Virus record (IMG/VR): IMGVR_UViG_3300029258_005166
Location: 1-64,000 of that record
Source: a virus
Strand: one strand, 5' to 3'
Length of the DNA stretch: 64,000 nucleotides
In this document: positions 1,005 to 53,329 of the stretch, piece after piece
How positions within the stretch are numbered: position 1 is the stretch's first letter
Layout: each line of letters starts with the position of its first letter
Notes under the pieces: model-generated
Told to the model about the DNA's origin: nothing
The model's input: only the letters and a program-made list of their open reading frames with translations
Database searches by the model: none
Made by a program: the position numbers and the translations under genes

Positions 1005-1259
1005 ATGAATTTCAAAGACTGGTTAGAAGCATACGTGCCCCCAAACCCTCTCGACACAGCAAAGGCTACGGCTGGAAGATCATGGGCTCCTGCCCATGAT
1101 TGGAAGATCTATTACCGAGAAAAGCCCGAAGAGATTCCCGAAGCAAGAAAATATATTCGTCTTAAACTATCTCAGGCCAGAAATTTGGGCCAAAAAACGC
1201 AAATTCAGCAGGCAGATAGAGCGTTGCGAGACATAGAACTAGAACAGGGCTTGATCTAA
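1005..1259 (+). CDS. Hypothetical protein with capsid-leader-like N-terminus
   Basis: An 84-residue protein beginning MNFKDWLEAY. That start matches the short leader found on about ten other proteins here (Phe, basic, acidic, aromatic, aliphatic, then Glu). In T4, similar N-terminal peptides direct internal proteins into the prohead and are cut after an (L/I)xE site; by analogy this could be a packaged protein. The remainder is charged and helical, with no known fold. TAGGAG lies 5 bases before the ATG. Co-directional with the upstream 96-aa gene. Confidence 0.6.
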   Translation: MNFKDWLEAYVPPNPLDTAKATAGRSWAPAHDWKIYYREKPEEIPEARKYIRLKLSQARNLGQKTQIQQADRALRDIELEQGLI

Positions 1260-1280
1260 GATAATAATCCTTGCTACAAT
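1251..1280 (+). promoter_or_regulatory. Candidate sigma70-type promoter
   Basis: TTGATC (1251-1256), 18-base spacer, TACAAT (1275-1280). It lies 28 bases before the membrane-protein gene at 1308 and overlaps the end of the preceding gene. Plausible by sequence only. Confidence 0.4.
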
Positions 1281-1307
1281 ACTCTCCTAGAAAATAGGAG
1301 AGCCACC

Positions 1308-1589
1308 ATGTTGTATATTGCAATTGCGATTGTTTCGGTTTCTGCATTGACCATTATTTTATACGATATTTTTAAACAGGACAGATCGGTGCCTCGGGCC
1401 TATCTTTTGTGCTTAATATGTATGGGTTTAGCGGTCATGACAGCTTCTCATGGAGGATGGGCTCCCTATGTCTGGCTGTTTACTGCATTGATCTGGCTAT
1501 TCAATGTTTGGTTAAGAAGATTTGTGGCTCGTCAAGAGGCTTATTTAAAAGAACTTAAAAAAGGACTTAAAAAGAGGCACAATGAATAA
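1308..1589 (+). CDS. Small three-helix membrane protein
   Basis: 93 residues with hydrophobic helices at about 2-22, 32-50 and 53-72, ending in a Lys/Arg-rich tail that should stay in the cytoplasm. No family recognised. AGGAG lies about 8 bases before the ATG. Its stop overlaps the next start by 8 bases, so it is probably translated together with the anchored protein that follows, and the two may work as a pair in the inner membrane. Confidence 0.65.
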   Translation: MLYIAIAIVSVSALTIILYDIFKQDRSVPRAYLLCLICMGLAVMTASHGGWAPYVWLFTALIWLFNVWLRRFVARQEAYLKELKKGLKKRHNE

Positions 1590-2211
1590 GAAGACTATCT
1601 TTATCGGTGTGGCCACTTGTATTGTGGTTATGATTGTTTTGCTTGTATTTTTCTCCCCGAGACAGACAATTGAAGTTTACCGGGATTACTCATTCATGGT
1701 AGATCGAGCATTTCCTGATGTTCGCAGAGCTTTTTATCGACAGGATTTTGTGAGAGAGGTGCTGGAAGTCCACGACGCAGAATTAGTCGAGAAAAAATGG
1801 TTAAGGCACGATCTAGACATACGTCGGCCAATTTTTAAGGAATCTGAATACACAGGGGTAATGCTCATTATTGCTAGGTCCAAAGAGGGCTATGGAACAA
1901 TACACATAGAACAAACAGTTACCTTGAAGCGTGATAGGATTTTGGCTTTGGCAAAGTTAGACAGACCGATGTCGGCGGGAGTAACCGATTGGAATCAGGA
2001 TATTTCAATCATCCCCGAGGGCGAAAAAACCAAGATTTCGATCAAACTCTATGCCAGATTATCGAGGCCGATTCCAAGAATATTTTGGAAATATGCGGAA
2101 GAACAAATGAATGTCGCTGCCGATAAGGCAACCTATGGAATGGAGCCGCTTCTAACGGAAATGGCCACGAAGGATGTGGGGCTTCTCGATTTTACGGTTC
2201 CGATGCCCTAG
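1582..2211 (+). CDS. Membrane-anchored protein with extracytoplasmic domain
   Basis: A 209-residue protein with one N-terminal hydrophobic helix (about residues 4-24) after a Lys-Lys start, so it should be an anchored or secreted protein with a ~180-residue outer domain. The outer part is beta-rich and charged, with no Cys pair; I do not recognise it (it loosely recalls SRPBCC/START-type domains). It overlaps the upstream membrane gene by 8 bases and runs 20 bases into the convergent aminotransferase gene. Confidence 0.6.
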   Translation: MNKKTIFIGVATCIVVMIVLLVFFSPRQTIEVYRDYSFMVDRAFPDVRRAFYRQDFVREVLEVHDAELVEKKWLRHDLDIRRPIFKESEYTGVMLIIARSKEGYGTIHIEQTVTLKRDRILALAKLDRPMSAGVTDWNQDISIIPEGEKTKISIKLYARLSRPIPRIFWKYAEEQMNVAADKATYGMEPLLTEMATKDVGLLDFTVPMP

Positions 2212-3001
2212 ACCGAACTGCTTCAGCAACACCTTCAGCTACCGGACAATTGCCGGTAATTCCTCGTTTTTTGCAGAAGGGCAAATTGTAGGTCACATAC
2301 GGGTAGAATCCGTCATGTTCATTGTATCTACCCAACTCTGATCTCCATCCATCGTGAAGCTTGAGTTGTTCGTAACCAATCAAAGCACAAGGTTCGGGCA
2401 TACGAAAATTGAAACCAAGTTCCGCAAACTCTCTCTTGTTGGCGGTAGGATTGGCGATTTCACGGATTCTTTGGGCATCAAGTTTGGAATATTCATCGAT
2501 GGCTATCATTCCGCCTTCAAAGGTAGAGAGGTTTTTGGTTTTATAGAAGCTAAAGCATCCGGCATCCCCCATTGTCCCAGCATATGGTCCATTTTGACCA
2601 AATTTTGCTCCCAAAGCCTGGGCGGCATCTTCTATCACCACCAAATTAAACCTATCAGCGATTTCCAAGATTGTCCACATATCACAGATGCGACCAAAGA
2701 GATGTACTGGCAAAATTGCTTTTGTGTGTTCGGTGATCGCTGCTTCGATAAGATTAGAATTGATAAGATGCGTGACAGGATCAATATCCACAAAAACGGT
2801 TTTTCCACCCGCGATCAAGATCGCTTCCGTAGTTGCCGCGAAAGTGAACGGGGTTGTAATGATCTCATCCTCTGGTTTTAAATCTAGAGACCAGAGTGTC
2901 GCTATCAAAGCCGAGGTGCAGCTATTGACGGCAATAGCGTGTTCGACCTCGAACTTCTTCTTAAATTCTTGTTCAAACAGGTCTCTAATTATCTGTGGCA
3001 T
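2192..3001 (-). CDS. DegT/DnrJ/EryC1-type sugar aminotransferase, compact
   Basis: A PLP-dependent aminotransferase that would place an amino group on a nucleotide-linked keto-sugar. Visible family marks are the phosphate-binding NSCTSAL loop, VIEDAAQ with its conserved Asp, and the SFYKTKN segment whose Lys should hold PLP, then the C-terminal GItGnCPVAE block. At 269 residues it is about 100 shorter than usual: the first ~30 residues and a stretch before the C-terminal block are missing, so activity needs checking. It sits beside the WlbB-like and WlbA-like genes, suggesting the WbpE/WlbC step (3-amination of UDP-GlcNAc-derived uronate). Confidence 0.85.
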   Translation of the reverse strand: MPQIIRDLFEQEFKKKFEVEHAIAVNSCTSALIATLWSLDLKPEDEIITTPFTFAATTEAILIAGGKTVFVDIDPVTHLINSNLIEAAITEHTKAILPVHLFGRICDMWTILEIADRFNLVVIEDAAQALGAKFGQNGPYAGTMGDAGCFSFYKTKNLSTFEGGMIAIDEYSKLDAQRIREIANPTANKREFAELGFNFRMPEPCALIGYEQLKLHDGWRSELGRYNEHDGFYPYVTYNLPFCKKRGITGNCPVAEGVAEAVRSRASEP

Positions 3002-3007
3002 CGATCA

Positions 3008-3525: not shown

Positions 3526-3526
3526 T

Positions 3527-4765: not shown

Positions 4766-5527
4766 ATGATAACCATTAAGAGCAAAAAACAAATAAGTGG
4801 GATTCGCAAAAGTTGTCAATTGGCGGCTTCAACTCTTGATATGATTGAGCCATTCGTTGTGGAAGGAATTACCACAGAGGAATTAAACAATCGTATTGCC
4901 GAGTTTATTACAAAGAATGATGCGATAGCTGCTCCGCTTAATTACTTGGGATATCCCAAAGAATGTTGTATCTCGCTCAATGAAGTGATTTGTCATGGCA
5001 TTCCTGATGAAACGAAACTCAAAGAAGGAGATATACTTAACATAGATGTAACAACCATTCTCGATGGCTACTACGGTGATACAAGTCGGATGTTTACGGT
5101 AGGACAGATTTCCGACGAAGCAGCATCTTTACTTAAGATTACAAAAGAGAGCCTTGAAGTTGGTATCCGACAAGTCAAGCCGGGAAACAAAACTGGCCGG
5201 ATTGGACACGCAATTTCGAAATTTGCCGAAGATCGAGGATATGGGGTTGTACATCAATTTTGTGGACACGGAGTTGGATTGCAATTCCACGAACCACCAC
5301 AGATACCGCACAAGGCCAACCCCAACACGGGAGTCGTAATGAGGCCGGGCATGATTTTTACAATCGAGCCCATGATTAACATTGGTCGGCCTGAAGCTAT
5401 TGTATCTGAAGAAGACAGGTGGACAGCAACAACTATCGATGGCGAATTATCTGCTCAATACGAACATACGGTTCTTGTGACCAAAAGCGGTGTAGAAGTA
5501 ATGACGAGAAGAGGAAAATATGAATGA
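4766..5527 (+). CDS. map: Type I methionine aminopeptidase
   Basis: Removes the initiator Met from nascent proteins. At 253 residues it is a full-length bacterial-type enzyme. All expected residues are visible: the His of NEVICHGIP, metal ligands Asp in NIDVT and YYGDTSRMF, His in the GHGVG block, Glu in FTIEPM and Glu in QYEHTV. An in-frame stop 4 bases before the ATG fixes the start. There is no ribosome site at normal distance; instead a 7-codon ORF (4746-4769) ends across the start as ATGA, after a good GGGAGG. The next gene overlaps by 8 bases. Confidence 0.96.
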   Translation: MITIKSKKQISGIRKSCQLAASTLDMIEPFVVEGITTEELNNRIAEFITKNDAIAAPLNYLGYPKECCISLNEVICHGIPDETKLKEGDILNIDVTTILDGYYGDTSRMFTVGQISDEAASLLKITKESLEVGIRQVKPGNKTGRIGHAISKFAEDRGYGVVHQFCGHGVGLQFHEPPQIPHKANPNTGVVMRPGMIFTIEPMINIGRPEAIVSEEDRWTATTIDGELSAQYEHTVLVTKSGVEVMTRRGKYE

Positions 5528-6052: not shown

Positions 6053-6277
6053 ATGTATGCATGGATTGGAATGCCGGGACCGATGGAAATGATAATCATC
6101 GGTATTGTTGCTGTCCTTCTTTTCGGCAAAAGACTTCCGGGAGTCGCAAAGTCCATCGGCCAAAGTATCACCGAATTTAAGAAGGGAATCAAGGCCATCG
6201 AAGAACCTCTTGAGGAAACAAAAAAAGAACTCAAGGAAGCAACAAGAGATGTCGAGAACGCAGTAAATAAGCCGTAA
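6053..6277 (+). CDS. tatA: TatA/TatE-family twin-arginine translocase subunit
   Basis: A 74-residue protein with the TatA plan: a short outer N-terminus ending in a Gly-Pro pair, one membrane helix (about residues 12-27), the FGKRLPGVAKSIG hinge, then an amphipathic helix and a Glu/Lys-rich tail. TatA oligomers form the pore that exports folded proteins carrying twin-Arg signals. AGGAG lies 6-7 bases before the ATG. No TatC or TatB is in the window, so it would act with the host translocase or do something else to the inner membrane. A strong terminator follows. Confidence 0.9.
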   Translation: MYAWIGMPGPMEMIIIGIVAVLLFGKRLPGVAKSIGQSITEFKKGIKAIEEPLEETKKELKEATRDVENAVNKP

Positions 6278-12137: not shown

Positions 12138-12560
12138 ATGCGTACTTTTCAACAATTTGTAGAGCAAGACATGGGAGCCCCTCCTCCTGGCGGATCTCCT
12201 GGTGGTGTCCCGCCTATGGGAGGAGGAGCAATGCCGCCTCCCGGAGGCATGCCGCCTCCCGGTGGACCGATGGGTGGACCGCCGATGGGAGGACCGGGTG
12301 CAGTCCCGGCAGGTCCAGCCCCAACAATAGAACTAAAACCCGCTGATGTTTGGGATGTGCTAGAAAGAATTTTAACTGGCAAGCCGATAGAAAAACCCTC
12401 TGGACAAAAGGGTGCAGATAGTGTAGAATCACCGCAACCTTCAGCACCTTCTCCAGAACTTTCAGCACCTCCTCCAACCGGTATGCCAGCCGTACCTCCA
12501 CCGGGTCCTGGCGTAGCTGGTTTTGCACCCCAGCCGTTACTAGGTGGACCACCGATGTAA
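12138..12560 (+). CDS. Pro/Gly-rich protein with capsid-leader-like start
   Basis: A 140-residue low-complexity protein beginning MRTFQQFVEQD, the leader shape seen on several proteins here and on T4 internal proteins. It then carries long Pro/Gly/Met runs, a short predicted helix (about residues 65-80) and a second Pro-rich tail. It resembles the protein at 18565 in plan. Possibly a packaged or virion protein. It precedes gp47 by 18 bases. Confidence 0.6.
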   Translation: MRTFQQFVEQDMGAPPPGGSPGGVPPMGGGAMPPPGGMPPPGGPMGGPPMGGPGAVPAGPAPTIELKPADVWDVLERILTGKPIEKPSGQKGADSVESPQPSAPSPELSAPPPTGMPAVPPPGPGVAGFAPQPLLGGPPM

Positions 12561-15844: not shown

Positions 15845-18082
15845 ATGTCTATAAAAGCATTGCAAGAATACACCTATTGTTCGAAATACGCACGTTACAA
15901 TAAAGAGGCAGGACGGAGAGAAACGTGGAATGAAGCAGTTGACCGAGTGAAAGAAATGCATCTTCGGCGGTATCCCGATATAACCGAAGACATTGAATGG
16001 GCTTTCGATTTAGTCAAACAGAAACGAGTTCTCGGATCGCAGAGAGCCCTTCAATTTGGTGGCGAGCCTATCGAGAAGAAACATGCTAGGCTTTATAATT
16101 GCGTTAGTTCGTATTGCGACCGCATGAGATTTTTTCAAGAGTGTTTTTGGCTTTTGTTGTGTGGTTGTGGAACGGGGTTTAGTGTTCAGAAACATCACAT
16201 CGCCAAATTGCCTCGTTTTTTCAAAGCGAGAGAAGCAAAGCAAAAAGTTTTTGTCATCCCCGATACTATCGAGGGATGGGCAGATAGCTTGGGTATTCTC
16301 TTAGCCACCTATCTGCCACATCCTGAATTTAAGGATTGGAAAGACTACGATGTCATTTTCGATTATTCTCAAATACGACCCGCTGGGTCGTTTTTGTCGT
16401 CTGGGGCGGGAAAAGCTCCTGGACACGAACCTCTTCAAACGGCTCTGGAACAAATCCGAGGACTATTGAATCGTTGCTATGAGGATGGTCAGGCTAGATT
16501 GCGTCCCATAGATGCTTACGATATCGTTATGCATACCAGCGATGCGGTTCTGTCGGGTGGTGTCCGACGTAGTGCCACAATCTGTATTTTTTCTCCTGAT
16601 GATAAAGAAATGAGAACCGCTAAGATTGGCAATTGGCGAGATGTCAATCCCCAGCGAGGCAGGTCAAATAACTCGGTGCTTCTTCTCAGAAATGAAACTA
16701 CCAAAGAGGAATTTCTTGATCTGCTTGAATGTGTCAAGGAATATGGAGAGCCGGGCTTTCTTTGGAGTGATAATAATGAAGCCCTTTTTAATCCTTGCGG
16801 AGAAATTTCATTTATTGCCTACGACAAGAATGGCAATTCAGGCTGGTGTTTTTGTAATCTCTGTGAGATCAATGGTAAAAAAATAAAGTGCAAAGAGGAT
16901 TTTGCTTTGGCGGCTAGAGCCGCCGCGATTATAGGCACCATCCAGGCAGGTTATACCGATTTCGATTATCTCGGCCCCATAACCAAAGAAATCGTTGAAA
17001 GAGAAGCCCTTTTGGGCGTGAGTATTACAGGAATGATGGACAATCCCGACGTTCTTTTCCATGCCAAAACTCAAAAAGAGATGGCTAAGTTGGTTTTAAA
17101 AGTCAATGATTGGATGGCGAAGAAAATCGGGATCAATCCCTGTGCCCGTGCGACGTGTGTTAAGCCTGCGGGAACCTCTAGTTGTGTTCTCGGCAGTGCT
17201 AGCGGCATTCATCCGCACCATGCAAAAAGATACTTTCGCCGCGTTCAGGCCAACACTCTGGAACCTGTTTTTCAATTTTTCAAGAAACACAATCCTCTAG
17301 CTAGTGAAAAGTGTGTTTGGAGTGCAAACCAAACGGACGAGGTTATTACATTCCCTATCGAGGTGCCCGCAGGAGCTAAAACAAAAAACGATTTGTCGGC
17401 GGTTGAGTTCCTTAATCATGTGAAGACAACACAAAATAACTGGGTTGCTGCTGGACGGCGAGAGGATCTTTGCGTAGAGCCATGGTTACGACATAATGTT
17501 TCAAATACAATCCAGGTAAATCCCGACGAATGGAAAAAAGTGGGTGATTATATTTTCAAGAACCGACAGTATTTTGCTGGCATAACCCTATTGCCCGCCT
17601 CGGGAGATTTGGATTATCCTCAAGCACCAATGGTAAATATTCTGACTCCGCGTGAAATCCTGCAAAGATATGGCGACGGATCTCTTTTGGCCAGCGGTTT
17701 GGTGGTTGATGGCATTCATGCTTTTGACGATTTGTGGGTTGGTTGTGATGTTGTTTTGGGCAATAGTGCCATCTCGGAAGAACCGAAGCGACCGAATGGA
17801 CATTCTACAATGGAAGATCATCGTCAATGGGAAGAGGATTATCGCAAATGGGAGATGCAAACCGATTGGGTTCGTCGAGTCAAGCAGTTTGCCCAAAGGT
17901 ATTGCAATGATGTAAGGCAATGTACCTATCTTATGAAGCATGTTCACTGTTGGAAGTTATGGTTGGATTTATCAAGGGAATATGTTGATATCGACTACAC
18001 TGAGTTCAAGGAAGAAGAGGATGTTACAAAACCTTTGGAATTGGTCGCCTGTGCAGGTGGTCAATGTGAATTGGCTCTTTAA
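15845..18082 (+). CDS. nrdJ: Class II (B12-dependent) ribonucleotide reductase
   Basis: Converts ribonucleotides to deoxyribonucleotides using adenosylcobalamin instead of an iron or oxygen radical, so it works with or without oxygen if the host has B12. 745 residues, the size of monomeric lactobacillar RTPR. Visible: the redox Cys in LYNCVSSYC, catalytic NPCGEI, CNLCEI with the second redox Cys, and the C-terminal CAGGQC pair. GGAAGGAAAGAG precedes the ATG. The next gene starts at its stop (TAATG). Confidence 0.94.
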   Translation: MSIKALQEYTYCSKYARYNKEAGRRETWNEAVDRVKEMHLRRYPDITEDIEWAFDLVKQKRVLGSQRALQFGGEPIEKKHARLYNCVSSYCDRMRFFQECFWLLLCGCGTGFSVQKHHIAKLPRFFKAREAKQKVFVIPDTIEGWADSLGILLATYLPHPEFKDWKDYDVIFDYSQIRPAGSFLSSGAGKAPGHEPLQTALEQIRGLLNRCYEDGQARLRPIDAYDIVMHTSDAVLSGGVRRSATICIFSPDDKEMRTAKIGNWRDVNPQRGRSNNSVLLLRNETTKEEFLDLLECVKEYGEPGFLWSDNNEALFNPCGEISFIAYDKNGNSGWCFCNLCEINGKKIKCKEDFALAARAAAIIGTIQAGYTDFDYLGPITKEIVEREALLGVSITGMMDNPDVLFHAKTQKEMAKLVLKVNDWMAKKIGINPCARATCVKPAGTSSCVLGSASGIHPHHAKRYFRRVQANTLEPVFQFFKKHNPLASEKCVWSANQTDEVITFPIEVPAGAKTKNDLSAVEFLNHVKTTQNNWVAAGRREDLCVEPWLRHNVSNTIQVNPDEWKKVGDYIFKNRQYFAGITLLPASGDLDYPQAPMVNILTPREILQRYGDGSLLASGLVVDGIHAFDDLWVGCDVVLGNSAISEEPKRPNGHSTMEDHRQWEEDYRKWEMQTDWVRRVKQFAQRYCNDVRQCTYLMKHVHCWKLWLDLSREYVDIDYTEFKEEEDVTKPLELVACAGGQCELAL

Positions 18083-18564: not shown

Positions 18565-19146
18565 ATGAAATTTGAATTTAAGGACTTTCTGCTAAACGAA
18601 GATAAGGCATACCTCGGACAGAGGGTGGGCAACATCCTGAGTGCCATTCAGGATCTAGTTCAAAACAGCAAAGGCATGGGAACACGACAACTGGTCCGCA
18701 ATTCCGAGACTATTGTAAATCAGATACGACGCATTTTACATACACACTGGCCTCAAGAGCATGAGGAGACCCTAAAAGGGCTCCAAAAGGCCGCTGTGGC
18801 AATTTCTAAGGCCATAGAAGACAAGGACGATCTAGAAGGTATCCTTCAGAGTAGTGCCCAAGAGGTTCAAGGCTTAATGGGAGACATGGATGTGCCGATC
18901 AACCAACTCGGAGGGGCCCCAGATCAAGAGCAACCCCAAGAACCTGCCGAACCCACTGCGGAGCCTCAAGGAGAGATGCCACCAACAGCCCCAGGGGCCG
19001 CTCCAGCGGCTCCAGCGGCCCCGATGGCCCCTGGAATGGCTCCTGCACCTCCAATGGCACCAGCGGCCCCTGGCGGGCCTGTAGGGCCTCCTGGGATACC
19101 TCCTACGATGCCTGGAATGCCTGGAATAATGCCTGGAATGATGTAA
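18565..19146 (+). CDS. Helical protein with capsid-leader-like start and collagen-like tail
   Basis: 193 residues: a leader-type start MKFEFKDFLLNED, a helical domain of about 110 residues, then an Ala/Pro/Gly/Met tail resembling that of the 12138 protein. The leader suggests packaging in the head, by analogy with T4 internal proteins. AGGA lies about 6 bases before the ATG. The long Pro-rich tail could be a flexible spacer. Function unknown. Confidence 0.6.
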   Translation: MKFEFKDFLLNEDKAYLGQRVGNILSAIQDLVQNSKGMGTRQLVRNSETIVNQIRRILHTHWPQEHEETLKGLQKAAVAISKAIEDKDDLEGILQSSAQEVQGLMGDMDVPINQLGGAPDQEQPQEPAEPTAEPQGEMPPTAPGAAPAAPAAPMAPGMAPAPPMAPAAPGGPVGPPGIPPTMPGMPGIMPGMM

Positions 19147-28733: not shown

Positions 28734-29233
28734 CTCTCCAAATAGGCTCTGTCGTATCGAAGTTGCAAATCGACGGTACAGTATTCACTGTTACCCATGT
28801 CGAGTTCCCCCCACTCTATGCTCTGGGGCCATGCATTCTCGTATACCCACGTCTCCAAAATGGTCCCACAACCATCGTACATTTCTAGTCGTGCTTCTGG
28901 TTTCTTCCAGGTACTCGGAGGAGGAGCAATCCAATCCCCTGGCCGGGGGTCGTATTGCAATTTCAACCACTCGTAAATAGGATTTTGTTTTGTTTTTAAA
29001 TCATAAAGAGTAAGTGGTACGGGCTTCCATTCTGGTTTTCCAGCAAAGTAAATGGTCTCATTAAGGTGTTGGGCTTCAATTTCCTTGAACGAAATGCTCG
29101 GCCTAGCAGATTTGCTCGGCGGTAATGCATCTATTCCATCCACGGAAATACTCGGAATTTTAAGTTGCCAACGAAATCTCCGCTTAATACAAAACGAAAC
29201 ATCGCCTATTGGGCCTAGACCCATGTCAACCAT
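28730..29233 (-). CDS. gp19: Tail-tube-like protein, paralogue C
   Basis: 167 residues, third of three related gp19-type tube proteins. It starts MVDMGLGPIGDV like its neighbours and shares the GW(E/Q)-type end and LEMYDGCGTILETWVYEN with LNLYDGCGTILEEWLLGD of paralogue A. The C-terminal Cys-rich extension of A and B is absent here. Gp19 stacks as hexamers to make the inner tail tube. Paralogues suggest a specialised ring or a variant tube. Confidence 0.8.
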   Translation of the reverse strand: MVDMGLGPIGDVSFCIKRRFRWQLKIPSISVDGIDALPPSKSARPSISFKEIEAQHLNETIYFAGKPEWKPVPLTLYDLKTKQNPIYEWLKLQYDPRPGDWIAPPPSTWKKPEARLEMYDGCGTILETWVYENAWPQSIEWGELDMGNSEYCTVDLQLRYDRAYLES

Positions 29234-29245
29234 GAATACCTCGAT

Positions 29246-29863
29246 TTATATGATTACATTAGTTCTGGTGTCAGGAAAGTTTCCAGCCGATGCAGCAGAT
29301 TGTGATTCGCACGGTGTACAACATGCAGCAGGAACAAATTCTGGACATAGTGAACGATAGGACACTTGTGAATAACGTAGTGTTAGTTCAATAGTGCATT
29401 CTTCCGAATTAGCATAGTCGAGATCTCCCCATTGTATTCCGGTCGGCCAGACATCATTCAATATCCATTCTTCGACCGGTTCCCCACATCCATCGTAAAG
29501 CATGAGGATGGCCCGACCCGCGTAATCTCTACGAGAACTACCCATTCTCAAACGAATAGGATCAGTATATTCATAGACTGTTGCAAGCCAAGTATACAGT
29601 GGCAGATTATCTATAACGTTCGCTAGATCATAGTAGGTGACAGTGATCGTTTCCCAAGTGCCTTTTCCTGGAATCCAGGTCTTGCCGTGTAAGAAATTGA
29701 TTTCCGTTTCTTCTATCGAAATGTTAGGACGTGCAGCGAGCTTCACGTAGTCCTTAGGAACCGTGAGCCCTCCGCAAATATCGCTGATCTCTAAGGTATA
29801 GCGGAACTTTCTCTTAAAAACAGCATTGTCAAATCCGAGTTTACCCAAACCCATATTTATCAT
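29246..29863 (-). CDS. gp19: Tail-tube-like protein, paralogue B
   Basis: 205 residues. Strongly like paralogue A: shared KRKFR, KLAARPN(I/L)SIEETEIN, GKTWIPGKGTWETITVTYYD and NSEECTIELTLRYSQ blocks. It has an extra C-terminal ~20-residue tail with a CC and Cys pair. I took the ATG at 29863 (GAGGT at 8 bases); a longer frame runs through the hairpin. Part of the gp18-tube operon. Confidence 0.88.
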   Translation of the reverse strand: MINMGLGKLGFDNAVFKRKFRYTLEISDICGGLTVPKDYVKLAARPNISIEETEINFLHGKTWIPGKGTWETITVTYYDLANVIDNLPLYTWLATVYEYTDPIRLRMGSSRRDYAGRAILMLYDGCGEPVEEWILNDVWPTGIQWGDLDYANSEECTIELTLRYSQVSYRSLCPEFVPAACCTPCESQSAASAGNFPDTRTNVII

Positions 29864-29892
29864 GATGAGGCACCTCTTGAAAGAAATGAAAG

Positions 29893-29924
29893 GCCTGCTT
29901 TGCCGCAAATGCGGCAAAGCAGGC
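29893..29924 (-). terminator. Hairpin between tube paralogues A and B
   Basis: A perfect 15-base-pair stem with a 2-base loop, followed on the minus strand by CTTTC and ATTTC. It falls between paralogue A and paralogue B and may lower B and C expression relative to sheath and A. Confidence 0.7.
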
Positions 29925-29933
29925 AATAAGTCT

Positions 29934-30488
29934 CTAAACGCTGCAACCCTCGCAGCAGTTGCGGATTGTGCCACCGCATCGTGGGCTGTATTCGACTTTT
30001 CCGTAACGAAGCGTTAGTTCAACCGTGCATTCTTCAGAGTTTGAATAATCTAGATCTTGCCAGTTGATCGCTTGTGGCCACATATCGCCTAGCAGCCATT
30101 CCTCCAAGATAGTACCACAACCATCATACAGGTTCAAAATTCCTAGTCCTTCATACCCACTTCTAATGGTGGATTGTTTAAGTCCAACGCTGTCTGTGAA
30201 GTCATAAAGGGTGGCGATCCAACCCCATAAGTCTTGATTTGCTGCCCCCGCAACATCGTAGTAGGTAACCGTAATCGTTTCCCAAGTGCCCTTTCCTGGA
30301 ATCCAGGTCTTGCCATTCAGGTAGTTAATTTCAGTTTCTTCGATGCTTAGGTTGGGCCTTGCGGCGAGCTTAACAAAGTTCTTCGGAATACTTAGACCAC
30401 AAGGGCCGTAAATTTCGAACGTCCATCTGAACTTTCTCTTATGGATAATACTTGGGCCGCCTAGTTCTCCCAATCCCATATCTATCAT
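29934..30488 (-). CDS. gp19: Tail-tube protein, paralogue A
   Basis: 184 residues, the first tube gene after the sheath and the most likely main tube protein. It has the gp19-type plan: MIDMGLGELGG start, KRKFRWTFEI, long GTWETITVTYYD strand and a DLDYSNSEECTVELTLRYG end. The C-terminal tail has four Cys. AGGAG precedes the ATG. Located 20 bases after the sheath stop. Confidence 0.88.
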   Translation of the reverse strand: MIDMGLGELGGPSIIHKRKFRWTFEIYGPCGLSIPKNFVKLAARPNLSIEETEINYLNGKTWIPGKGTWETITVTYYDVAGAANQDLWGWIATLYDFTDSVGLKQSTIRSGYEGLGILNLYDGCGTILEEWLLGDMWPQAINWQDLDYSNSEECTVELTLRYGKVEYSPRCGGTIRNCCEGCSV

Positions 30489-35886: not shown

Positions 35887-36071
35887 TTCTTCTTCCTCTT
35901 TTTCTTGGTCCAATGTTTAATGGGCCCTTCTTTCGGACTTACAGCCGTTTTGCCGGGAGCCCCCCACCAATTCCAGTCTTCCTTAGGCTTTTGGGAGGGA
36001 TCGTAGACGACTCCAGTGCCAACCATTTCGCCCACCATCTCTAACCAAGTTTTAAATTCTAGTTTTTCCAT
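35883..36071 (-). CDS. Small protein with capsid-leader-like start
   Basis: 62 residues beginning MEKLEFKTWLEMVGE, one of the leader-type starts (Phe-Lys-x-Trp-Leu-Glu). The rest is Trp/Gly/Pro-rich and ends in nine Lys/Arg residues, suggesting nucleic-acid contact. Candidate packaged protein by analogy with T4 internal proteins. Coupled by ATGA to the 102-aa gene. Confidence 0.55.
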   Translation of the reverse strand: MEKLEFKTWLEMVGEMVGTGVVYDPSQKPKEDWNWWGAPGKTAVSPKEGPIKHWTKKKRKKK

Positions 36072-36087
36072 ACTTTATTTAGCAAAA

Positions 36088-37163: not shown

Positions 37164-37685
37164 ATGGCTGAAGACCAAGGGCATCCTGCTGGAATGAACT
37201 TCAAAGAATTTATCAATATAGACGAAAACACAAGCATTACTGAACTTTTCAGTGAAGCCACAACTGCTACGCGGTATAGTGTGGAAGTCAACTATCGCAG
37301 CAAAGTCAAAGAAGTTTTAGAAGCTTATGCGAAGATCGTTCTTGGATACGTGAGTGCCGCTCTCAAGCAAAACGATTATCATGTCAAGCAAGTTTTCGAT
37401 GAATCTCCCATGAGGATCATTGTTTCCACTAGAAATTTTGACGACGGAGAGTGGACTGGGATCGTTCTCTTCAATCCTCACAAAGAATGTTTCATAGTAG
37501 CAAAGGGATTCTACAACAAAAACAGAAAGACCGTGTCCATCCAAGGCAGCAAGAAATGTGATGGCGACTCCGCTGCGGAGATCACGAAAGAAATCCGCAA
37601 TGTCATGCACAATCTCAAGGGCAAGAAGGATCGCTATCGCGAAAAACTTCGACCGGTTCCGCTCAAAAGAGGCCCGAAAAGATGA
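37164..37685 (+). CDS. Protein with capsid-leader-like start, 173 aa
   Basis: Encodes 173 residues; from residue 11 it reads MNFKEFINIDENTS, the leader pattern. The body is alpha/beta (EVNYRSKVKEVLEAY, RIIVSTRNFDDGEW, TGIVLFNPHKE) with a basic C-terminus. I recognise no family. AGAGGA lies 9 bases before the ATG at 37164; the ATG at 37194 is the alternative that puts the leader at the true N-terminus. Coupled to the next leader-bearing gene by ATGA. Confidence 0.6.
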   Translation: MAEDQGHPAGMNFKEFINIDENTSITELFSEATTATRYSVEVNYRSKVKEVLEAYAKIVLGYVSAALKQNDYHVKQVFDESPMRIIVSTRNFDDGEWTGIVLFNPHKECFIVAKGFYNKNRKTVSIQGSKKCDGDSAAEITKEIRNVMHNLKGKKDRYREKLRPVPLKRGPKR

Positions 37686-37906
37686 ATTTTAGGAAATGGT
37701 TAGCCAATGAAGAGAGTGGCTTTCATACGGGCGGCATGATGGCTACAACTAAGCAGGGTTACGATCAAAATCTCCAGGAACCCGAAGGATTGGCATATCG
37801 CAAACCTGTCATTCCAAAGAGGCAAACTTGGCTAGCCAAGAAAATAGCTGCTTTGTTTGGAAAGAAGGAGGAAGCGGGAGCCCCCAATCGGGCTGCACCA
37901 TCTTAA
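37682..37906 (+). CDS. Small protein with capsid-leader-like start, 74 aa
   Basis: Begins MNFRKWLANEES, a leader-type start, followed by a Gly/Gln/Lys-rich chain ending in Ala/Pro. No domain. It begins inside the previous stop (ATGA). Its last 98 bases overlap the convergent AtpZ-like gene. Confidence 0.55.
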   Translation: MNFRKWLANEESGFHTGGMMATTKQGYDQNLQEPEGLAYRKPVIPKRQTWLAKKIAALFGKKEEAGAPNRAAPS

Positions 37907-42371: not shown

Positions 42372-44444
42372 TTATACTTCTGTTGCAACGGCAACTTCTA
42401 ATTCCTTAACTGAAAGAAATTGTCCTTTCTCGTTGCGTTGTATTTTTTGCTTTTTCTTACTTTCTGATATTTTCTTACGAGTTTCTTCATTCATTGGCTT
42501 TCCCAGACGGCAATTCCTACGTCCGTTGTATTTTTCATTGATCGCTTTAAATTCTTTTGAGTCCAAAATTTGTTTCGGAATAAATGGATTGACCGAGATT
42601 ATTTCAACTCGACATATTTTACAGATGTTGTTTTTCTCGCCAGTCGTGTCAAAATGCAATTTGATTTCTTTAAGATGAGGACGTAACAAAATTGCTTTGT
42701 CTTCACCGCTCGCTTGTAATACGTCTTTGCAAAGAGTTTCAATGGTCGAAGCCATTTTCAATAAATGTTCTTTGGCACGACGATATTCTGGCACTAAAGA
42801 AACCAGATTCGCTTCTAGCACTTCAATTTCTAGTTGTTTATCCTTGATGAATTGTTTAACATCGGGGTCGTCTGCTATATCACTGAATTTCAAAATCAAT
42901 TTTTGTTTTTCAGATTTTAGATCAGCGATTTTAGATTTTACCGACTGACTGGCTTCATCAAATATTTCTTGATATGTAAGCTCGAAATAATCAGCATTGG
43001 CATCAGTTGCCGTATATTTCCAAGCACGTTTTTGGAAATTCTTGGTCTTTTCTTCGTCGGTTTCGCCAGGAAGGTTTGTCAAAATAAATCGGTACATCTT
43101 CTGGGCGACTTCGCCGCAAAACTCATTGGCATTGGATGACTTCACTTTCTCACAAAGAGCGGTATAACTTTGTCCAAGCCATTTAAGCCAATTGTCGATT
43201 ATTTCATGGATAACATCGGCTTTGACAGCACCACATTTATTACAGCGATAATTTTTTGACGGCTTCCATTTTGTGCTATTGGAGACATAAAGAATATCTT
43301 GACAATTATCACAGAACAAAAAACACTTCGCCCAAAAATCACCTAAATTAGCTCGTCGTAATCGTTTATAATCAGTTTGATTGTCTTTGAGGTATTTGTT
43401 TATTCTATCCCATTGCTCCACCGAAATAATGCGAATGGACGTTCGTTCTTCTTCGGTTAGAGGGACGACAACTATCTCGGTATTCAACCGAGCAGTTTTG
43501 GCTTTCGAGACTTGATTATCAATTGGATAACCCTTGTAGATTGAATTTGTTAATATGCACTTGATCGTCTTGGCACCCCACTGCGAACTCATACTTTTGA
43601 TGTTTTTCGCATTCAAAATACAAGCAATTTCGTGCGAGGTTTTATAGTTTGGAGCATCAGCCAGATCAAAGATTTCTTTTATAATTTTGGCACGTTCGAC
43701 ATTGATGATTTCTGTTTTTCGGTCGCCTTTTTCCATTGACGGGGCAGACGTAAGCAACACCCAATTATGACCATCTTGAACCCATTGATCGTGATATGCT
43801 TCTCGCTTGCCATCTGGTAATTCTTTCCATCGCATCAATGCGTAATTGGCACGACTTCTGGTATTTTTAGGTGGATCAGTCCAGTGTCGTCCCTCACATT
43901 TTTTGTAGCCATCGTAAATGACCTTATATTTGAAGGTTCCTTCACGATTGAACACAATCCAGTCGTATCCATAAGCACACATTTTGCCAGGGCTAGATTT
44001 TTTCTCAATGGTTTTGCGACGGGCAATTTGAGTTCTATATCCTTTCTTTTCTATTTCGGCAGAAGAAGCCAGTTGATTTTGCACTGTTCTCATTGTTGAC
44101 GCAAGATCGTTCATATCAACAATTTGTTCATCATTGGCAGTGATGATTTTTATATCCAACTGCTTCAAAGAGGTGATGAAAAACCCAATTTCGGCAGGAT
44201 TTTTGAAGCCAATTCTATCGTGATCTCGATAAATGACATATTCTGGTTTGGTGGTTTTTAATTTAGAAATTAAATTTTGTGCTTCATCGAGCATGTCCCA
44301 GCGTGGTACGCCATTTAATGTTATTTCATCAATCATTTTCCAACCCATTTTGCTAATAAACGGATCAATTATCATGTCTTGATTAGACAGTTCCATCGGG
44401 TCAGAAACATTGGATTTTCTTCTTATTTTAACACAAGTAGTCAT
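42372..44444 (-). CDS. Large serine recombinase with NUMOD-like C-terminus
   Basis: 690 residues. Resolvase-type catalytic domain (about 1-170; VKIRRKSNVS holds the probable nucleophile Ser, and DRIGF lacks the usual second Arg), then a recombinase domain (SHEIACILNAKNI, ILTNSIYKGYP), a Zn-ribbon (CDNC ... CNKC near 385-415), and a long coiled coil. The last ~40 residues (NEETRKKISESKKK) look like a NUMOD3 motif found in homing endonucleases. CGGAG directly before the ATG. Such enzymes integrate or excise mobile DNA. Confidence 0.88.
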   Translation of the reverse strand: MTTCVKIRRKSNVSDPMELSNQDMIIDPFISKMGWKMIDEITLNGVPRWDMLDEAQNLISKLKTTKPEYVIYRDHDRIGFKNPAEIGFFITSLKQLDIKIITANDEQIVDMNDLASTMRTVQNQLASSAEIEKKGYRTQIARRKTIEKKSSPGKMCAYGYDWIVFNREGTFKYKVIYDGYKKCEGRHWTDPPKNTRSRANYALMRWKELPDGKREAYHDQWVQDGHNWVLLTSAPSMEKGDRKTEIINVERAKIIKEIFDLADAPNYKTSHEIACILNAKNIKSMSSQWGAKTIKCILTNSIYKGYPIDNQVSKAKTARLNTEIVVVPLTEEERTSIRIISVEQWDRINKYLKDNQTDYKRLRRANLGDFWAKCFLFCDNCQDILYVSNSTKWKPSKNYRCNKCGAVKADVIHEIIDNWLKWLGQSYTALCEKVKSSNANEFCGEVAQKMYRFILTNLPGETDEEKTKNFQKRAWKYTATDANADYFELTYQEIFDEASQSVKSKIADLKSEKQKLILKFSDIADDPDVKQFIKDKQLEIEVLEANLVSLVPEYRRAKEHLLKMASTIETLCKDVLQASGEDKAILLRPHLKEIKLHFDTTGEKNNICKICRVEIISVNPFIPKQILDSKEFKAINEKYNGRRNCRLGKPMNEETRKKISESKKKQKIQRNEKGQFLSVKELEVAVATEV

Positions 44445-46902: not shown

Positions 46903-47676
46903 TTATTTTTTCCTGCCCATAATCTGAGCATCAAGATCGGTTGTTGCTTTTCTTGGATTCATCCAAAACTTTGGATATTGGGCACTGAAGTAAGCGGGCG
47001 GATAATTGGCACTCCAACCAGTACGAGCCCGTTGTTCTTCAGTCGCTTCCTCTCCCTTCGGGGAATCTGTTTCTTCACCTTGAGGAACATCTGCGGGTTC
47101 AGCGGCAGGTTCTTCACCGATTCTGGTTTGCGGTGCGAATCCGGGTTCACCCGGTTTTGGACCGATACCATCCCAGAATCTTTCATTTGGGTCAGCATTA
47201 ACCATACGATTTACGCTGGTCCACCAGCCTTTTTCCTCATCTGTTAAAGTGGATTCCTTTTTCATCCCTTTGCCACAATTTTTGCCGGAACACTTCTTCT
47301 TGAACTTGGGCTCAAGATCTTCGTCTTCGTCGCCATTGCCGAGTTTCTTCTTCAGCTTAATCTTGATGTCCTCTTCACCCTCGTCTTCTTCTTCCTCGGG
47401 CTCTTCTTCCTCGGGCTCTTCAACATCAACATCGGGCTTCTCTTCAACATCAATGTCTTCTTCATCTTCTTCTTCGGGCTCGGGTTCGGGCTCTACGTCA
47501 GCAAGCATTTTTTTCTTGCCTTTCTTCTTTTTGGCCTCTTCCAGGGCTTCATCCTCTTCCAGTTCAGGATGGGAACCCATAACACCCAGCGAATTGGGAG
47601 TGCGAAGACCGAGGGGTGTAGGCCCTGCGGCTAGAAAGGATTCGTTGTAAAGTTTGTAATCTTTATAGGATAGCAT
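46903..47676 (-). CDS. Acidic low-complexity protein with leader-like start
   Basis: 257 residues. MLSYKDYKLYNESF resembles the leader pattern with Tyr for Phe/Trp. The middle (about 60-130) is almost all Glu, Asp, Pro and Lys; a CSGKNCGK cluster follows; the end is Trp/Pro-rich. GAGGT precedes the ATG. Candidate internal or scaffold-like protein. Confidence 0.6.
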   Translation of the reverse strand: MLSYKDYKLYNESFLAAGPTPLGLRTPNSLGVMGSHPELEEDEALEEAKKKKGKKKMLADVEPEPEPEEEDEEDIDVEEKPDVDVEEPEEEEPEEEEDEGEEDIKIKLKKKLGNGDEDEDLEPKFKKKCSGKNCGKGMKKESTLTDEEKGWWTSVNRMVNADPNERFWDGIGPKPGEPGFAPQTRIGEEPAAEPADVPQGEETDSPKGEEATEEQRARTGWSANYPPAYFSAQYPKFWMNPRKATTDLDAQIMGRKK

Positions 47677-48771: not shown

Positions 48772-48900
48772 TCACAAGATTTTGGTTTCTTTGTGTTTAA
48801 CTAATTTTCGCTGCGTGTTCCGGTTCTTTTTTAGACTACGACGCTTCACAAGACCTGAACGACCGCCCTTTTTTCCGCCGCCTCTACATCCACAACCCAT
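48772..48900 (-). CDS. Gly/Cys/Arg-rich micro-protein B
   Basis: 42 residues starting MGCGCRGGGKKGGRSG, followed by a basic helix. The ATG overlaps the sigma factor stop (TAATG), so it is translationally coupled to it. Similar N-terminus to micro-protein A. Function unknown; RNA or DNA contact is plausible from charge. Confidence 0.55.
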   Translation of the reverse strand: MGCGCRGGGKKGGRSGLVKRRSLKKNRNTQRKLVKHKETKIL

Positions 48901-49556
48901 TATTTTTCTAAGCCTCCCTTTTTCAGCCGTCGAAGTAGGTCTTTCTTTGCTTGGTGAATCGCTCTTTTGACCGTTCCTATAGGAAGATCTTCTTCTTGAG
49001 CAATCTCACTAATTTTCATTCCATCGAAATATTGCTTCATCAAGAATCTAGTTCGTCTTTCACTATATCCTCCCTCTGCAAGCATTGCCTGCAAAGCTCG
49101 ATACATGAGTTCTTTGTGTTCATGTTCTGAAGCCAAAGTGGTTGGATCATCTTTCGAAGAGATGCTCGGAAGACCAAATCCGACTTTACCCATTTTCTTA
49201 GGGCTCATTTTTAAGACGGTTTCCCCCGGATCAGAAACGGTAGATATTTTTTGTCTACGGTAATAGTTGGCCATCGTATTGCGAATGACCGACCAGATCC
49301 AATTTTGAAAATTCTTGGGAGGGGCCTTTTCCATTGCTTGGATTATTCTTTGAATAACCTCTTGTGTAATATCTTCAGCATCTTGTTGGTTCTTGCTTTT
49401 TCGTAGAATAGCTGAAAAGATTTTTCTCTCCCACCTTGCTAGAAGATTCGCAAGTGCAGACCGGTCCCCTTCTTTTGCGGCAGCTACAAGAACTTGGTCC
49501 TCTGTATCTTCCGAAAATAGCGGGTCATCATTTAACCAGTCTCGAAAATCCATCAT
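48900..49556 (-). CDS. ECF-type sigma factor with capsid-leader-like start
   Basis: 218 residues. Region 2 (LLARWERKIFSAIL, QDAEDITQEV, NWIWSVIRNTMANYYRR) and region 4 (RTRFLMKQYFDGMKISEIAQ, LPIGTVKRAIHQAK) define an extracytoplasmic-function sigma factor that binds host RNA polymerase. The N-terminus MMDFRDWLNDD matches the leader seen on several proteins here. It starts inside the stop of the 710-aa gene (ATGA) and overlaps micro-protein B by TAATG. No anti-sigma is evident. Confidence 0.88.
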   Translation of the reverse strand: MMDFRDWLNDDPLFSEDTEDQVLVAAAKEGDRSALANLLARWERKIFSAILRKSKNQQDAEDITQEVIQRIIQAMEKAPPKNFQNWIWSVIRNTMANYYRRQKISTVSDPGETVLKMSPKKMGKVGFGLPSISSKDDPTTLASEHEHKELMYRALQAMLAEGGYSERRTRFLMKQYFDGMKISEIAQEEDLPIGTVKRAIHQAKKDLLRRLKKGGLEK

Positions 49557-51685
49557 TGTTCCTGTTCTGGGGATTTGGGGGGAGAGAAAGGCTTGCTAAT
49601 TCTTTCTCGTTGCTCCGGTGATGTTAAAGGGGAAAGTCCTCGTATCATTTGTTCTCTTTCGGCCTTTCTTCTTTTAGCTTCTTCTTCCGGTAGTCCGTAC
49701 AGTAGATGTTTCAATGGAATCATTTCTGATACCTTGGCATATCCATGTGTCACAGGAATCTTAATTGTTTTAAGGGCATTCCTTCCTTTATCGAGCCAAT
49801 TGTTGACCATACCTGTTGTCGCTGGAATAAATGGCAACATCGTATCTGTGAGGCTGTCAATCAAATCTTTTAACTCAAATATGGCAATAGCATTTCCCGA
49901 TTTCCAAGGAGCTTTCTGTAATTGACGCAAGTAATCTCGTATATCATGGATAACGTTGTGTACAGCAACCGTTTGCTGTCTCGTTCTCTTGTCAAGTTCT
50001 TTTCTTCGCTCCACGATAGCGTCAAACATTCTGCTGTGTCCTCTTCCCAAGGAACTTCCTTCGCCGCGTCCCAGCTTCGCAATCTTTTTTACCCCAGCCA
50101 AAGCCTTCTCCAAATGTTCCTGGCTCCTTTGTGCCATTTGTGTTGTGTGCTTTTCTTGGCCTGCTGCCGAGGGCCTTTGCATCGGAACGATCTTTTGTCC
50201 TCGCACTTGGGGAACAGGAGGAAGAGCCCACAAGGGGATTCTAATCATGAGTTGATTCAGCCTGTCTTCTCTCCCCTTCCACAATTTATGTTCTTTGCTC
50301 CCCGGCCTATGTTTGTATCTTTGATTGGTTGCGTTATTCCAATCTTTTTTCATTTGTTGAAGCAGTGTGTCTACGGCTGCCATTTGTTCATCAAGCAATC
50401 GGTCAATCTCCGCTTTGTTTTTAAAGACGTTCTCATTAAGGGTTTTTTGAATATCATTCGGCAATTTGGCTATAACATTCGGTGCCGAACGCATAAAATC
50501 CTCTGATCTCTCTTTCCGTGCCTCATGCTCCAGTTTGTTCCATTCCGCCGCACAATGTCGTTGAGCCCCTCCTTCTTTTAGTCCCACCGATCTCATTCCA
50601 GCACTAATGTGTGGTTCGTATTCGCCCCGTTCATTTTTATTGAAACCATAGTAACAAAGCAATATCATTGCTTGTCGATAACCCTCATCCCCGGTCTGCT
50701 TCAACTGCTCTAATGCTCGAAATAGTAGTTCTTCTCTCTCCGATTGCATTAACTCTCTGTCGGGAATTTTGAATGGTGAGCGGCCAAAAGTCTCTGCCCC
50801 ACCACCGGGTCGTTGGCCACCTTTGCCCGTTACGACGGTTGGGGCGGTTTCTCTGCCCATTACTGGATCTCCCACTCGACCCCGTCTAGCACCTCCAATA
50901 CCAAGACCCGGCTCCCATTCTTCTCCTTCCTCGCCAGCACCGATTTCAGTCGGAACCATGAGGTGACCCCTCTTTTTTTCTCTCGCCTGTATTTGGGCAA
51001 TCTGCTCTGGACTCATTCCCCGATATTTTTCGGCCTCTTTTTCAGCTTTCTCTTCGGGAGTCATTTCTACCGACTGAAAAAAAGGTTTTGCCCTTAGTTT
51101 TTCCTGAGTCCGAAGGATGTCGCTTCCACGCTTTGCTAGGAGAGGCATATATGCTGCTACACCTCGCTGAAAAATATCACTGATCGGCTTGTATTGTCCT
51201 TTTGATTTCTCGGTAATCTGTGTGAGTAATTTTTCAAACATCGGACCAATAATTTCAAGAGCCCTTTCAGGGTTGCCTGTTTTTCGTTCGGCGGCTGTCC
51301 TCGCTACTTCAAACAATTCCCCGATTACGTCCCTGGCTCGTTCTATGTCGTTCGCAAGTGCCACCGCATTTGGATATCGTTGTCGAGCCTCCTCGGGCAT
51401 ACCTCGTTCTAGTTGTTCGGGACTCATGGCATCTAGAATACTAACCGCCTTTCCACGTTGTTGGCTAAGTGTTGCCATCTTCTCCTCTACAGCCGCACGT
51501 TCTTGACGTGACAATTGCTTAGATGCCTCCTCTTTTAGCTGGGCATGCCAACGCATAGTATGGGCAGCATCGATATACTTCTGCTCATCTCCTCCTTGTT
51601 CCAGAAAGAGACAAACGGCTTCAACGACAACCCGCTTAATATCTTGAACGTTTTCTTCTAAGCAGAGCCATTCCCTAAACAACAT
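49553..51685 (-). CDS. Large charged protein with capsid-leader-like start
   Basis: 710 residues beginning MLFREWLCLEE. The body is helical and rich in Glu, Lys, Arg and Gln, with an acidic/Gly-rich linker (about 245-290). No enzymatic motif recognised. The ATG at 51685 is preceded by GAGGT and a TATATA box; a longer frame has no ribosome site. Coupled to the ECF sigma gene downstream. Candidate internal head protein. Confidence 0.65.
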   Translation of the reverse strand: MLFREWLCLEENVQDIKRVVVEAVCLFLEQGGDEQKYIDAAHTMRWHAQLKEEASKQLSRQERAAVEEKMATLSQQRGKAVSILDAMSPEQLERGMPEEARQRYPNAVALANDIERARDVIGELFEVARTAAERKTGNPERALEIIGPMFEKLLTQITEKSKGQYKPISDIFQRGVAAYMPLLAKRGSDILRTQEKLRAKPFFQSVEMTPEEKAEKEAEKYRGMSPEQIAQIQAREKKRGHLMVPTEIGAGEEGEEWEPGLGIGGARRGRVGDPVMGRETAPTVVTGKGGQRPGGGAETFGRSPFKIPDRELMQSEREELLFRALEQLKQTGDEGYRQAMILLCYYGFNKNERGEYEPHISAGMRSVGLKEGGAQRHCAAEWNKLEHEARKERSEDFMRSAPNVIAKLPNDIQKTLNENVFKNKAEIDRLLDEQMAAVDTLLQQMKKDWNNATNQRYKHRPGSKEHKLWKGREDRLNQLMIRIPLWALPPVPQVRGQKIVPMQRPSAAGQEKHTTQMAQRSQEHLEKALAGVKKIAKLGRGEGSSLGRGHSRMFDAIVERRKELDKRTRQQTVAVHNVIHDIRDYLRQLQKAPWKSGNAIAIFELKDLIDSLTDTMLPFIPATTGMVNNWLDKGRNALKTIKIPVTHGYAKVSEMIPLKHLLYGLPEEEAKRRKAEREQMIRGLSPLTSPEQRERISKPFSPPKSPEQEQ

Positions 51686-51768: not shown

Positions 51769-51775
51769 AGCTTGT

Positions 51776-52678: not shown

Positions 52679-52743
52679 AATTTCTCCCCTTTTTTAGCAT
52701 TTCCCTCTGGCGTAATCTAGTCTGATTTGTTAAAATTGTCAAT

Positions 52744-52884
52744 ATGAATGATGTAGAAAAAACCCTTCTAGAAGAGAAACAAAGGTTCCTTTTGAAAATA
52801 ATAGAGTGGGCCCAAAAGCATGGTAAGAAAGTCGAACTACTGACTATGAGTGAAATTTTAAAGGCCGCTAGGTGTAAACTCTAG
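52744..52884 (+). CDS. Tiny protein, 46 aa
   Basis: A helical peptide (MNDVEKTLLEEK...). No clear ribosome site. It overlaps the minus-strand 37-aa gene by 17 bases, tail to tail. Weakly supported. Confidence 0.35.
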   Translation: MNDVEKTLLEEKQRFLLKIIEWAQKHGKKVELLTMSEILKAARCKL

Positions 52885-52981
52885 GTTTATGTAGCAAAGG
52901 TTTGCCTTTGCGAACTAATTTTTCTCGCCTTTGCTGGCTCTTAGTACGTTCTTGTTTCTGAAGCCACTCTCGGAAATTCAT
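52868..52981 (-). CDS. Tiny basic protein with capsid-leader-like start
   Basis: 37 residues beginning MNFREWLQKQER, then Lys/Arg/Gln-rich. The start is identical in plan to the other leader proteins, so it may be a packaged basic peptide. There is no strong ribosome site. Supported mainly by the leader match. Confidence 0.5.
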   Translation of the reverse strand: MNFREWLQKQERTKSQQRREKLVRKGKPLLHKPRVYT

Positions 52982-53026
52982 ACCCTATTTAGACATTAGG
53001 CGACTAGATATGGTTGTATGAAACCC

Positions 53027-53329
53027 ATGAATTTTCGAGAGTTTGTTTATCAAGAAAAACCTCGACAGAATTATGCTGATATCGAGGTTGCGAATCTCTA
53101 TTTTCACAATCAACTTAAAGTCAGGGAGATTTCCGAACTAACCGGCAGATCAATTGGTGAAATTTACAGGGTAATTCGCATACAAGGTGAACCAAATCGA
53201 AAACGGCGAGATCAAGGAAACGTAATCGCCCTGGCCGATTCGGGCCTTGGACTCAGAACAATTTCCGATCTTACGGGCTACACAACTAGGCATATTCGAA
53301 ATATCTTGAAAAATGGTAAGTCCGACTGA
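53027..53329 (+). CDS. HTH protein with capsid-leader-like start
   Basis: About 100 residues beginning MNFREFVYQEKP (alternative ATG at 53018). Two helix-turn-helix-like repeats follow: VREISELTGRSIGEIYRVI and LRTISDLTGYTTRHIRNIL, so it should bind DNA as one or two recognition helices. The leader suggests packaging, so it could act on host or phage DNA at entry. The next gene overlaps by 17 bases. Confidence 0.75.
   Translation: MNFREFVYQEKPRQNYADIEVANLYFHNQLKVREISELTGRSIGEIYRVIRIQGEPNRKRRDQGNVIALADSGLGLRTISDLTGYTTRHIRNILKNGKSD

Follow-up and report, generated by a model that had tools for sequence, protein, structure and literature searches.

A shared N-terminal leader resembling the T4 capsid-targeting sequence on many unrelated proteins of an uncultured phage and its relatives

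Introduction

Why should eleven proteins with unrelated bodies, all encoded in one 64,000-nucleotide stretch of viral DNA, begin with the same kind of short peptide? The stretch (the window) comprises bases 1–64000 of the IMG/VR virus record IMGVR_UViG_3300029258_005166 (135,444 bases, hereafter G000), which may be incomplete. An earlier, sequence-only reading of the window had proposed that this peptide, the leader, is a packaging signal marking proteins that are injected into the host. Injected phage proteins are among the first things that a bacterium meets, and few are known per phage. We report here that the leader is very probably a capsid-targeting sequence (CTS) of the T4 type, used on a very large scale by this phage and its relatives.

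Leaders in the window and across the clade

All eleven peptides that had been described were found letter for letter. They are listed here with the neighbouring promoter-like boxes (nt, nucleotides; aa, amino acids; SD, Shine-Dalgarno sequence; ECF, extracytoplasmic function):

1005–1040, plus strand: leader MNFKDWLEAYVP of an 84-aa protein; CTAAATA box at 986–992, then an SD
12138–12173, plus strand: leader MRTFQQFVEQDM of a Pro/Gly-rich 140-aa protein upstream of SbcD (gp47)
18565–18600, plus strand: leader MKFEFKDFLLNE of a 193-aa helical, Pro-tailed protein
36036–36071, minus strand: leader MEKLEFKTWLEM of a 62-aa basic protein
36076–36082, minus strand: late-type box CTAAATA ending 4 nt before the ATG at 36071; no SD
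37194–37229, plus strand: leader MNFKEFINIDEN of a 163-aa protein with an internal start; homologues in 7 records
37682–37717, plus strand: leader MNFRKWLANEES of a 74-aa protein
47641–47676, minus strand: leader MLSYKDYKLYNE of a 257-aa acidic/Lys-rich protein; relatives read MLSYKEYKLLNES
49521–49556, minus strand: leader MMDFRDWLNDDP, fused directly to an ECF-type sigma factor
51650–51685, minus strand: leader MLFREWLCLEEN of a 710-aa protein, whose gene immediately precedes that of the sigma factor
52946–52981, minus strand: leader MNFREWLQKQER of a 37-aa basic peptide
52986–52992, minus strand: late-type box CTAAATA ending 4 nt before the ATG at 52981
53027–53062, plus strand: leader MNFREFVYQEKP of a helix-turn-helix protein of about 100 aa
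53004–53010, plus strand: late-type box CTAGATA ending 7 nt before the ATG at 53018

Three of the start positions given with these peptides need qualification. That at 37194 is an internal Met of a longer open reading frame (37164), although its homologues start at the leader; 49556 is the first of two adjacent Met codons (49556 and 49553); and 53027 lies inside a frame with an alternative start at 53018.

Genes were called on the whole of G000 (201 genes) with a simple codon-based finder, which also supplied the gene starts, and records of relatives were retrieved by their tail sheath and major capsid proteins. A simple pattern of an aromatic residue, any two residues, a second aromatic and an aliphatic one, beginning anywhere from residue 2 to residue 8, occurs in 25 of the 201 genes, against 4.4 expected from internal windows, while shuffled N-termini gave a mean of 5.0 and a maximum of 12–13. 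We then used a position-weight matrix obtained by expectation-maximisation on eleven relatives, with G000 held out, at a threshold of 7 bits (internal false-positive rate 0.6%). This profile matched 23 genes of G000 where 1.2 were expected. About 12–15 leaders in addition to the eleven lie beyond the window, which thus holds only about half of the leader genes of a genome tagged throughout. One leader gene had been skipped by the gene caller (118133, minus strand, MKSFSQFMNE). The matches at 120232 (primase-like by eye), 128378 and 129712 are probably due to chance, as perhaps is that at 78295.

With the same profile, relatives carry 6–43 leaders (27/172 genes in G001, 24/194 in G010 and 43/331 in G015), the small counts coming from short fragments. 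LR756511 is an uncultured phage of 595 kb with a capsid protein of 79% identity; 27 leaders occur in its first 400 kb, against 5 expected. Reference phages gave three matches in T4, four in P-SSM2, three in P-RSM1, four in phiM12, two in MelJY01, one in HTVC008M and none in Listeria LIS04 or SPO1. The leader, which the sequence-only reading wanted compared with other phages, is thus far commoner here (23/201 genes in G000, 0–4 per reference phage). Chance, or a common N-terminal composition (aromatic and acidic residues being frequent at the start of phage proteins), is an exceedingly unlikely explanation: the pattern is short and loose, and unrelated phages do show those 0–4 matches, but chance composition is ruled out by the shuffles, the held-out profile and the independent genome.

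The two lowest-scoring leaders of the window are backed by relatives. That at 12138 (4.7 bits) has synteny in its favour, as its gene lies directly 5' of the SbcD gene, like the leader-bearing Pro-rich genes of G001 and G003. That at 47676 (5.8 bits) has homologues in seven genomes, several starting MLSYKEYK.LNE or MLSYKNWKLMNE.

The gp23 protein had no match in the nine records found by tail sheath, which are probably fragments. The major capsid protein is about 80–98% identical across the records L046–L125 and LR756511; since these range from fragments to 595 kb, genome size differs several-fold within one capsid lineage.

Leader residues, cleavage motif and head genes

The information in the profile lies in an F (2.7 bits), a W/F/Y three residues on (2.7 bits) and an L/I/V after it (1.3 bits). 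Positions +5 to +8 are enriched in Glu. Examples from the clade are MNFREWLQKQE and MKFEFKDFLLNED. In the clade set of 248 leader genes the position of this core varies between residues 2 and 8, but its F is at residue 4 in 112 and at residues 3–5 in 205, which mostly puts the aromatics at residues 4 and 7 and the aliphatic one at 8. The 10-residue CTS of T4 internal protein IPIII, MKTYQEFIAE, acts in targeting mainly via residues 4 and 7, and its processing depends on residues 8 and 10, as seen by mutagenesis in T4 (PMC9026906). The fixed positions of the clade leader, a tag of about ten residues, coincide with these targeting and processing residues, a coincidence that was not an input to the profile and that favours the proposed packaging signal.

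T4 gp21 cleaves after L/I-x-E (PMC9026906). A motif of this type, [LI]xE, stands behind the core in 73 of 177 N-terminal cores (41%) and in 40 of 467 internal ones (9%), and the broader hydrophobic-x-E in 134/177 (76%) and 116/467 (25%), respectively. The leader had been described as usually followed by Glu, which these counts bear out as an enrichment at the end of the tag, not as a feature of every leader. The residue after the leader Glu (P1') favours N, A or S.

A gp21-like protease gene, for which the sequence-only reading had suggested looking outside the window, was found near gp23 and gp20 in a group of head genes, of which gp20 and gp23 are clear and a presumed gp22 equivalent is placed by position and coiled-coil look (record coordinates):

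95690–97129: gp23 (PF07068, 3.5e-84)
97144–98049: coiled-coil-like protein in the gp22 position
98049–98762: gp21-type prohead protease (PF03420, 2.1e-27; T4 gp21 structure 5JBL, 8.6e-15)
between the protease and the next gene listed: a 580-aa protein
101024–101251: leader protein in the gp67 position
101248–105030 (L004:248-4030), minus strand: gp20 portal with an intein

The gp20 intein carries a homing endonuclease, and the reading frame runs to 1,260 aa. The protease motifs round His and Ser, GELDHP and GISSRG, are conserved in the clade and line up with those of T4, and a gp21-family protease was present in 12/12 relatives queried. The gp23 of the clade keeps L-[MIF]-N-E at the column of what we take to be the T4 gp23 cut site, and conserved leader families end in a like manner (FLLNE, LLNE).

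Late-type boxes on the start codon

A de novo search upstream of leader genes returned [AC]TA[AT]ATA with a sharp peak 4–5 nt before the ATG, a feature that is new relative to the sequence-only reading. NTANATA ending 2–8 nt before the ATG occurs in 78 of 248 clade leader genes and in 88 of 1,776 others (odds ratio 8.8, p = 5e-32, with single genomes down to 8e-10), and in LR756511, which was not used to find the box, in 19/27 leader genes and 26/808 others (p = 2e-20); as genes are not fully independent across related genomes, these p-values are indicative. Among genes with an upstream gap of at least 30 nt, LR756511 included, the figures are 52/132 and 54/1,108. An SD-like sequence accompanies 3 of 68 box-bearing leader genes, 50 of 137 other leader genes and 643 of 1,716 non-leader genes.

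The same box type, here with an SD, stands 15 nt upstream of gp23 (GATAAATA), 26 and 49 nt upstream of gp20 (AATAAATA/GATAAATA) and 24 nt upstream of the terminase gene. Boxes like the T4 late -10 box (TATAAATA) are found together with a candidate factor to read them:

27895–28437, plus strand: gp55-like late sigma factor (phrog_234, PHROG late sigma, 7.5e-08)

This factor presumably reads the boxes, and late-type promoters on leader genes are what the proposed packaging signal would lead one to expect. In T4, late transcription starts about 5–6 nt past the box. With similar spacing, a box 4–5 nt before the ATG would place the transcript start at the ATG or within 1–2 nt of it, which implies, by analogy with T4, that box-bearing leader genes would make leaderless late mRNA. 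No report of leaderless late mRNA for internal proteins was found in the literature searched.

The frequency of boxes 4–5 nt before the ATG in leader genes, and the SD in just 3/68 of the box-bearing ones, raise the possibility that the peptide is a by-product of leaderless-mRNA translation, reflecting a codon pattern after the ATG that aids initiation. This is very improbable, because the 170 of 248 leader genes that have no box keep the same peptide, the core F and L use all of their codons (F near genome usage, L with TTA raised) and the core has no fixed place, lying anywhere from residue 2 to residue 8; conversely, box-bearing non-leader genes do not have the peptide.

Two neighbouring genes of G010, at 90152 and 90666, are 92% identical over 100 nt from -66 to +33 round the ATG. 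The shared block consists of the promoter and eleven leader codons, after which the bodies, of 141 and 98 residues, are unrelated. This duplicated block is one clear case, other pairs being less alike; it lies in a run of about a dozen leader genes (L146, G010 83–98 kb), most with their own proximal box.

Bodies of the leader proteins

That the bodies are unrelated, as had been claimed, holds across the clade: an alignment of 129 leader proteins has essentially MxxFxxWL alone in common, and 102 of the 248 have no homologue in other clade records. Where bodies are shared, the homologue also bears a leader in 399 of 504 cross-record pairs. Judged from the following proteins, the leader is an add-on before recognisable domains:

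48900–49556 of the window, minus strand: ECF-type sigma factor with leader; E. coli sigma-E aligns from residue 13
118135–119328 of the record: DnaJ protein, domain from residue 30
G018, L175:5301-5984: S-adenosylmethionine (SAM) lyase with leader and box, domain from residue 38
G010: S-adenosylmethionine decarboxylase with leader, domain from residue 46

G015 adds three adjoining leader genes that include tRNA nucleotidyltransferase-like and HAD-type RNA-repair proteins. Leader proteins as a set also gave matches to ADP-ribosyltransferase, Mom and 2'-5' RNA ligase. Most leader proteins match no family: Pfam scans of 50 from relatives were mostly empty, so that cargo roles are proposed from a minority of them. 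Searched against PDB sequences, the SAM lyase and one leader protein of G010 gave no match, and the 710-aa protein (51685) had none in Pfam or PHROG. The genes of this protein and of the sigma factor adjoin with stop and start overlapping (window 48900–51685, minus strand), and for both the clade records show no homologue. Blocking of type IV restriction enzymes is known for T4 internal proteins (PMC12373910, PMC9391042), and by this precedent SAM removal and RNA repair would be natural cargo.

A leader by itself is silent on its binding partner, and bodies such as the sigma factor, the DnaJ protein and the helix-turn-helix protein might suggest a docking peptide for something other than the prohead (host RNA polymerase, membrane, tail or a phage compartment). 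We consider this improbable. It would leave the agreement with the T4 CTS positions unexplained, and the tagged families are too different for one cellular partner, whereas hydrophobic-x-E motifs beside a genomic gp21-type protease fit prohead processing; the late-type promoters on leader genes also speak against it.

A different possibility keeps the leader as a CTS, but makes its bearers parts of the prohead core or scaffold that are consumed in assembly instead of cargo. A leader gene occupies the gp67 position (101024–101251), and the 18565 family is found in 10 related records with the leader retained in all, as expected of a core component; its predicted fold has a confident helical part (residues 11–108) and no significant structural relative. 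Nevertheless, most bodies are unique or rare, a better fit to variable cargo, and several are enzymes or regulators. As a general account this is rather unlikely, although some leader proteins may be core components.

Other features of the window

Several further genes of the window are recorded here:

4766–5527, plus strand: methionine aminopeptidase, complete (PDB match, 3.8e-79)
6053–6277, plus strand: TatA-like small membrane protein (PDB match, 3.6e-08)
15845–18082, plus strand: ribonucleotide reductase with weak class II (B12-dependent) features
28730–30488, minus strand: three adjoining genes by the tail sheath with similar N-termini, M.(D/N)MGLG, perhaps tail-tube paralogues
42372–44444, minus strand: 690-aa protein with a serine-recombinase domain (PF07508), in a T4-like phage
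54787–56976, minus strand: subtilase (S8) gene split by an intein with a LAGLIDADG homing endonuclease

Methionine aminopeptidase-like genes were also seen, by eye, near the Pro-rich leader gene in G001 and G003; a phage enzyme of this kind could be relevant to N-terminal processing.

Discussion

The observations on this phage and its relatives comprise a leader in excess on variable bodies, a cleavage-like motif, a gp21-type protease, head genes and promoter boxes. Each prediction of the packaging signal that sequence could address came out in its favour. From these observations we infer the following route. Tagged proteins would be made late in infection, many from late promoters set right at the start codon. 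Through its aromatic face (F4, W/F7, L8) the leader would bind the prohead scaffold core, so that the proteins are built into the prohead, where the gp21-type protease would cut after the Glu of the hydrophobic-x-Glu just behind the leader and release the mature proteins into the space that the DNA comes to fill. Injection would be a natural consequence of capsid targeting: the proteins would leave with the DNA at the next infection, and may then have early host-control and counter-defence roles.

We are close to evenly divided, leaning slightly against, on a further proposal, namely that the box fused to the start codon and the 10-residue leader form a portable cassette of about 50–100 bp. 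Captured genes would by this means become packaged, injected and expressed from leaderless late mRNA, yielding in genomes of about 120–600 kb a set of 20–45 proteins that includes a transcription factor, RNA repair and SAM-destroying enzymes.

A number of points weigh against the leader being a CTS, or limit how far it can be taken. Roughly one leader in four lacks a hydrophobic-x-E close by, so that cleavage may not concern all of them, and the scaffold protein (gp22) was assigned by position and coiled-coil look only. At about 0.6% false positives per gene, the profile will return several matches per large genome, and about one in G000, by chance; chance matches in other records include primase, ribonucleotide reductase and DNA polymerase A. 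Cargo such as ribonucleotide reductase and phosphoribosyltransferase resembles ordinary metabolism and may likewise be false matches. Of the three T4 genes above 7 bits, ipIII alone encodes a known internal protein, which indicates that the profile is tuned to this clade. The phage is uncultured, and the leader system is read here from its sequence.

If the leader is indeed a CTS, it is a readable tag from which the probable injected set of uncultured groups of huge phages, mostly proteins of no known family, can be listed from their genomes. The promoter arrangement would also give a simple view of how a phage adds a newly acquired gene to its injected proteins.

Comparison with known systems

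Many head proteins of phiKZ and SPN3US are processed and ejected with the DNA after cleavage behind Glu by a gp21-related protease, a likeness for which the clade side is read from its genes; phiKZ cleavage is at S/A-x-E, with propeptides that can hold several sites (PMC9026906). Unlike these phages, the clade has a T4-type head, a gp55-type sigma factor and one shared short leader. The T4-like cyanophages P-SSM2 and P-RSM1 have a few similar N-termini (MKSFKQFLEEA, MRTFQEFLQL, MKKFSAFLSEA), but only about 3–5 per genome and without the proximal box.

T4 Alt, a large head ADP-ribosyltransferase, is injected and acts on host transcription right after injection. In G000 the ECF sigma factor and the large 710-aa protein are tagged side by side, which recalls Alt; no Alt homologue was recognised, however, and a sigma factor is a different activity.

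A close likeness is to T4 IPI–IPIII, which share with the clade a short N-terminal tag with aromatics at 4 and 7, an aliphatic residue at 8 and a Glu cleavage site, unrelated bodies, and the gp21, gp23 and gp20 head genes. At least 10 internal proteins have been reported across T-even relatives (PMC12373910). The clade differs in carrying about 20–45 tagged genes per complete-sized record, against 3 in T4, in having F as its leading residue and often W as the second, with a Glu of variable position, and in the many genes with a late box on the start codon and bodies that include enzymes and regulators. The leader would therefore be of a known kind, the T4-type CTS; what is new is how widely it is used and that it goes with promoters sitting at the start codon.

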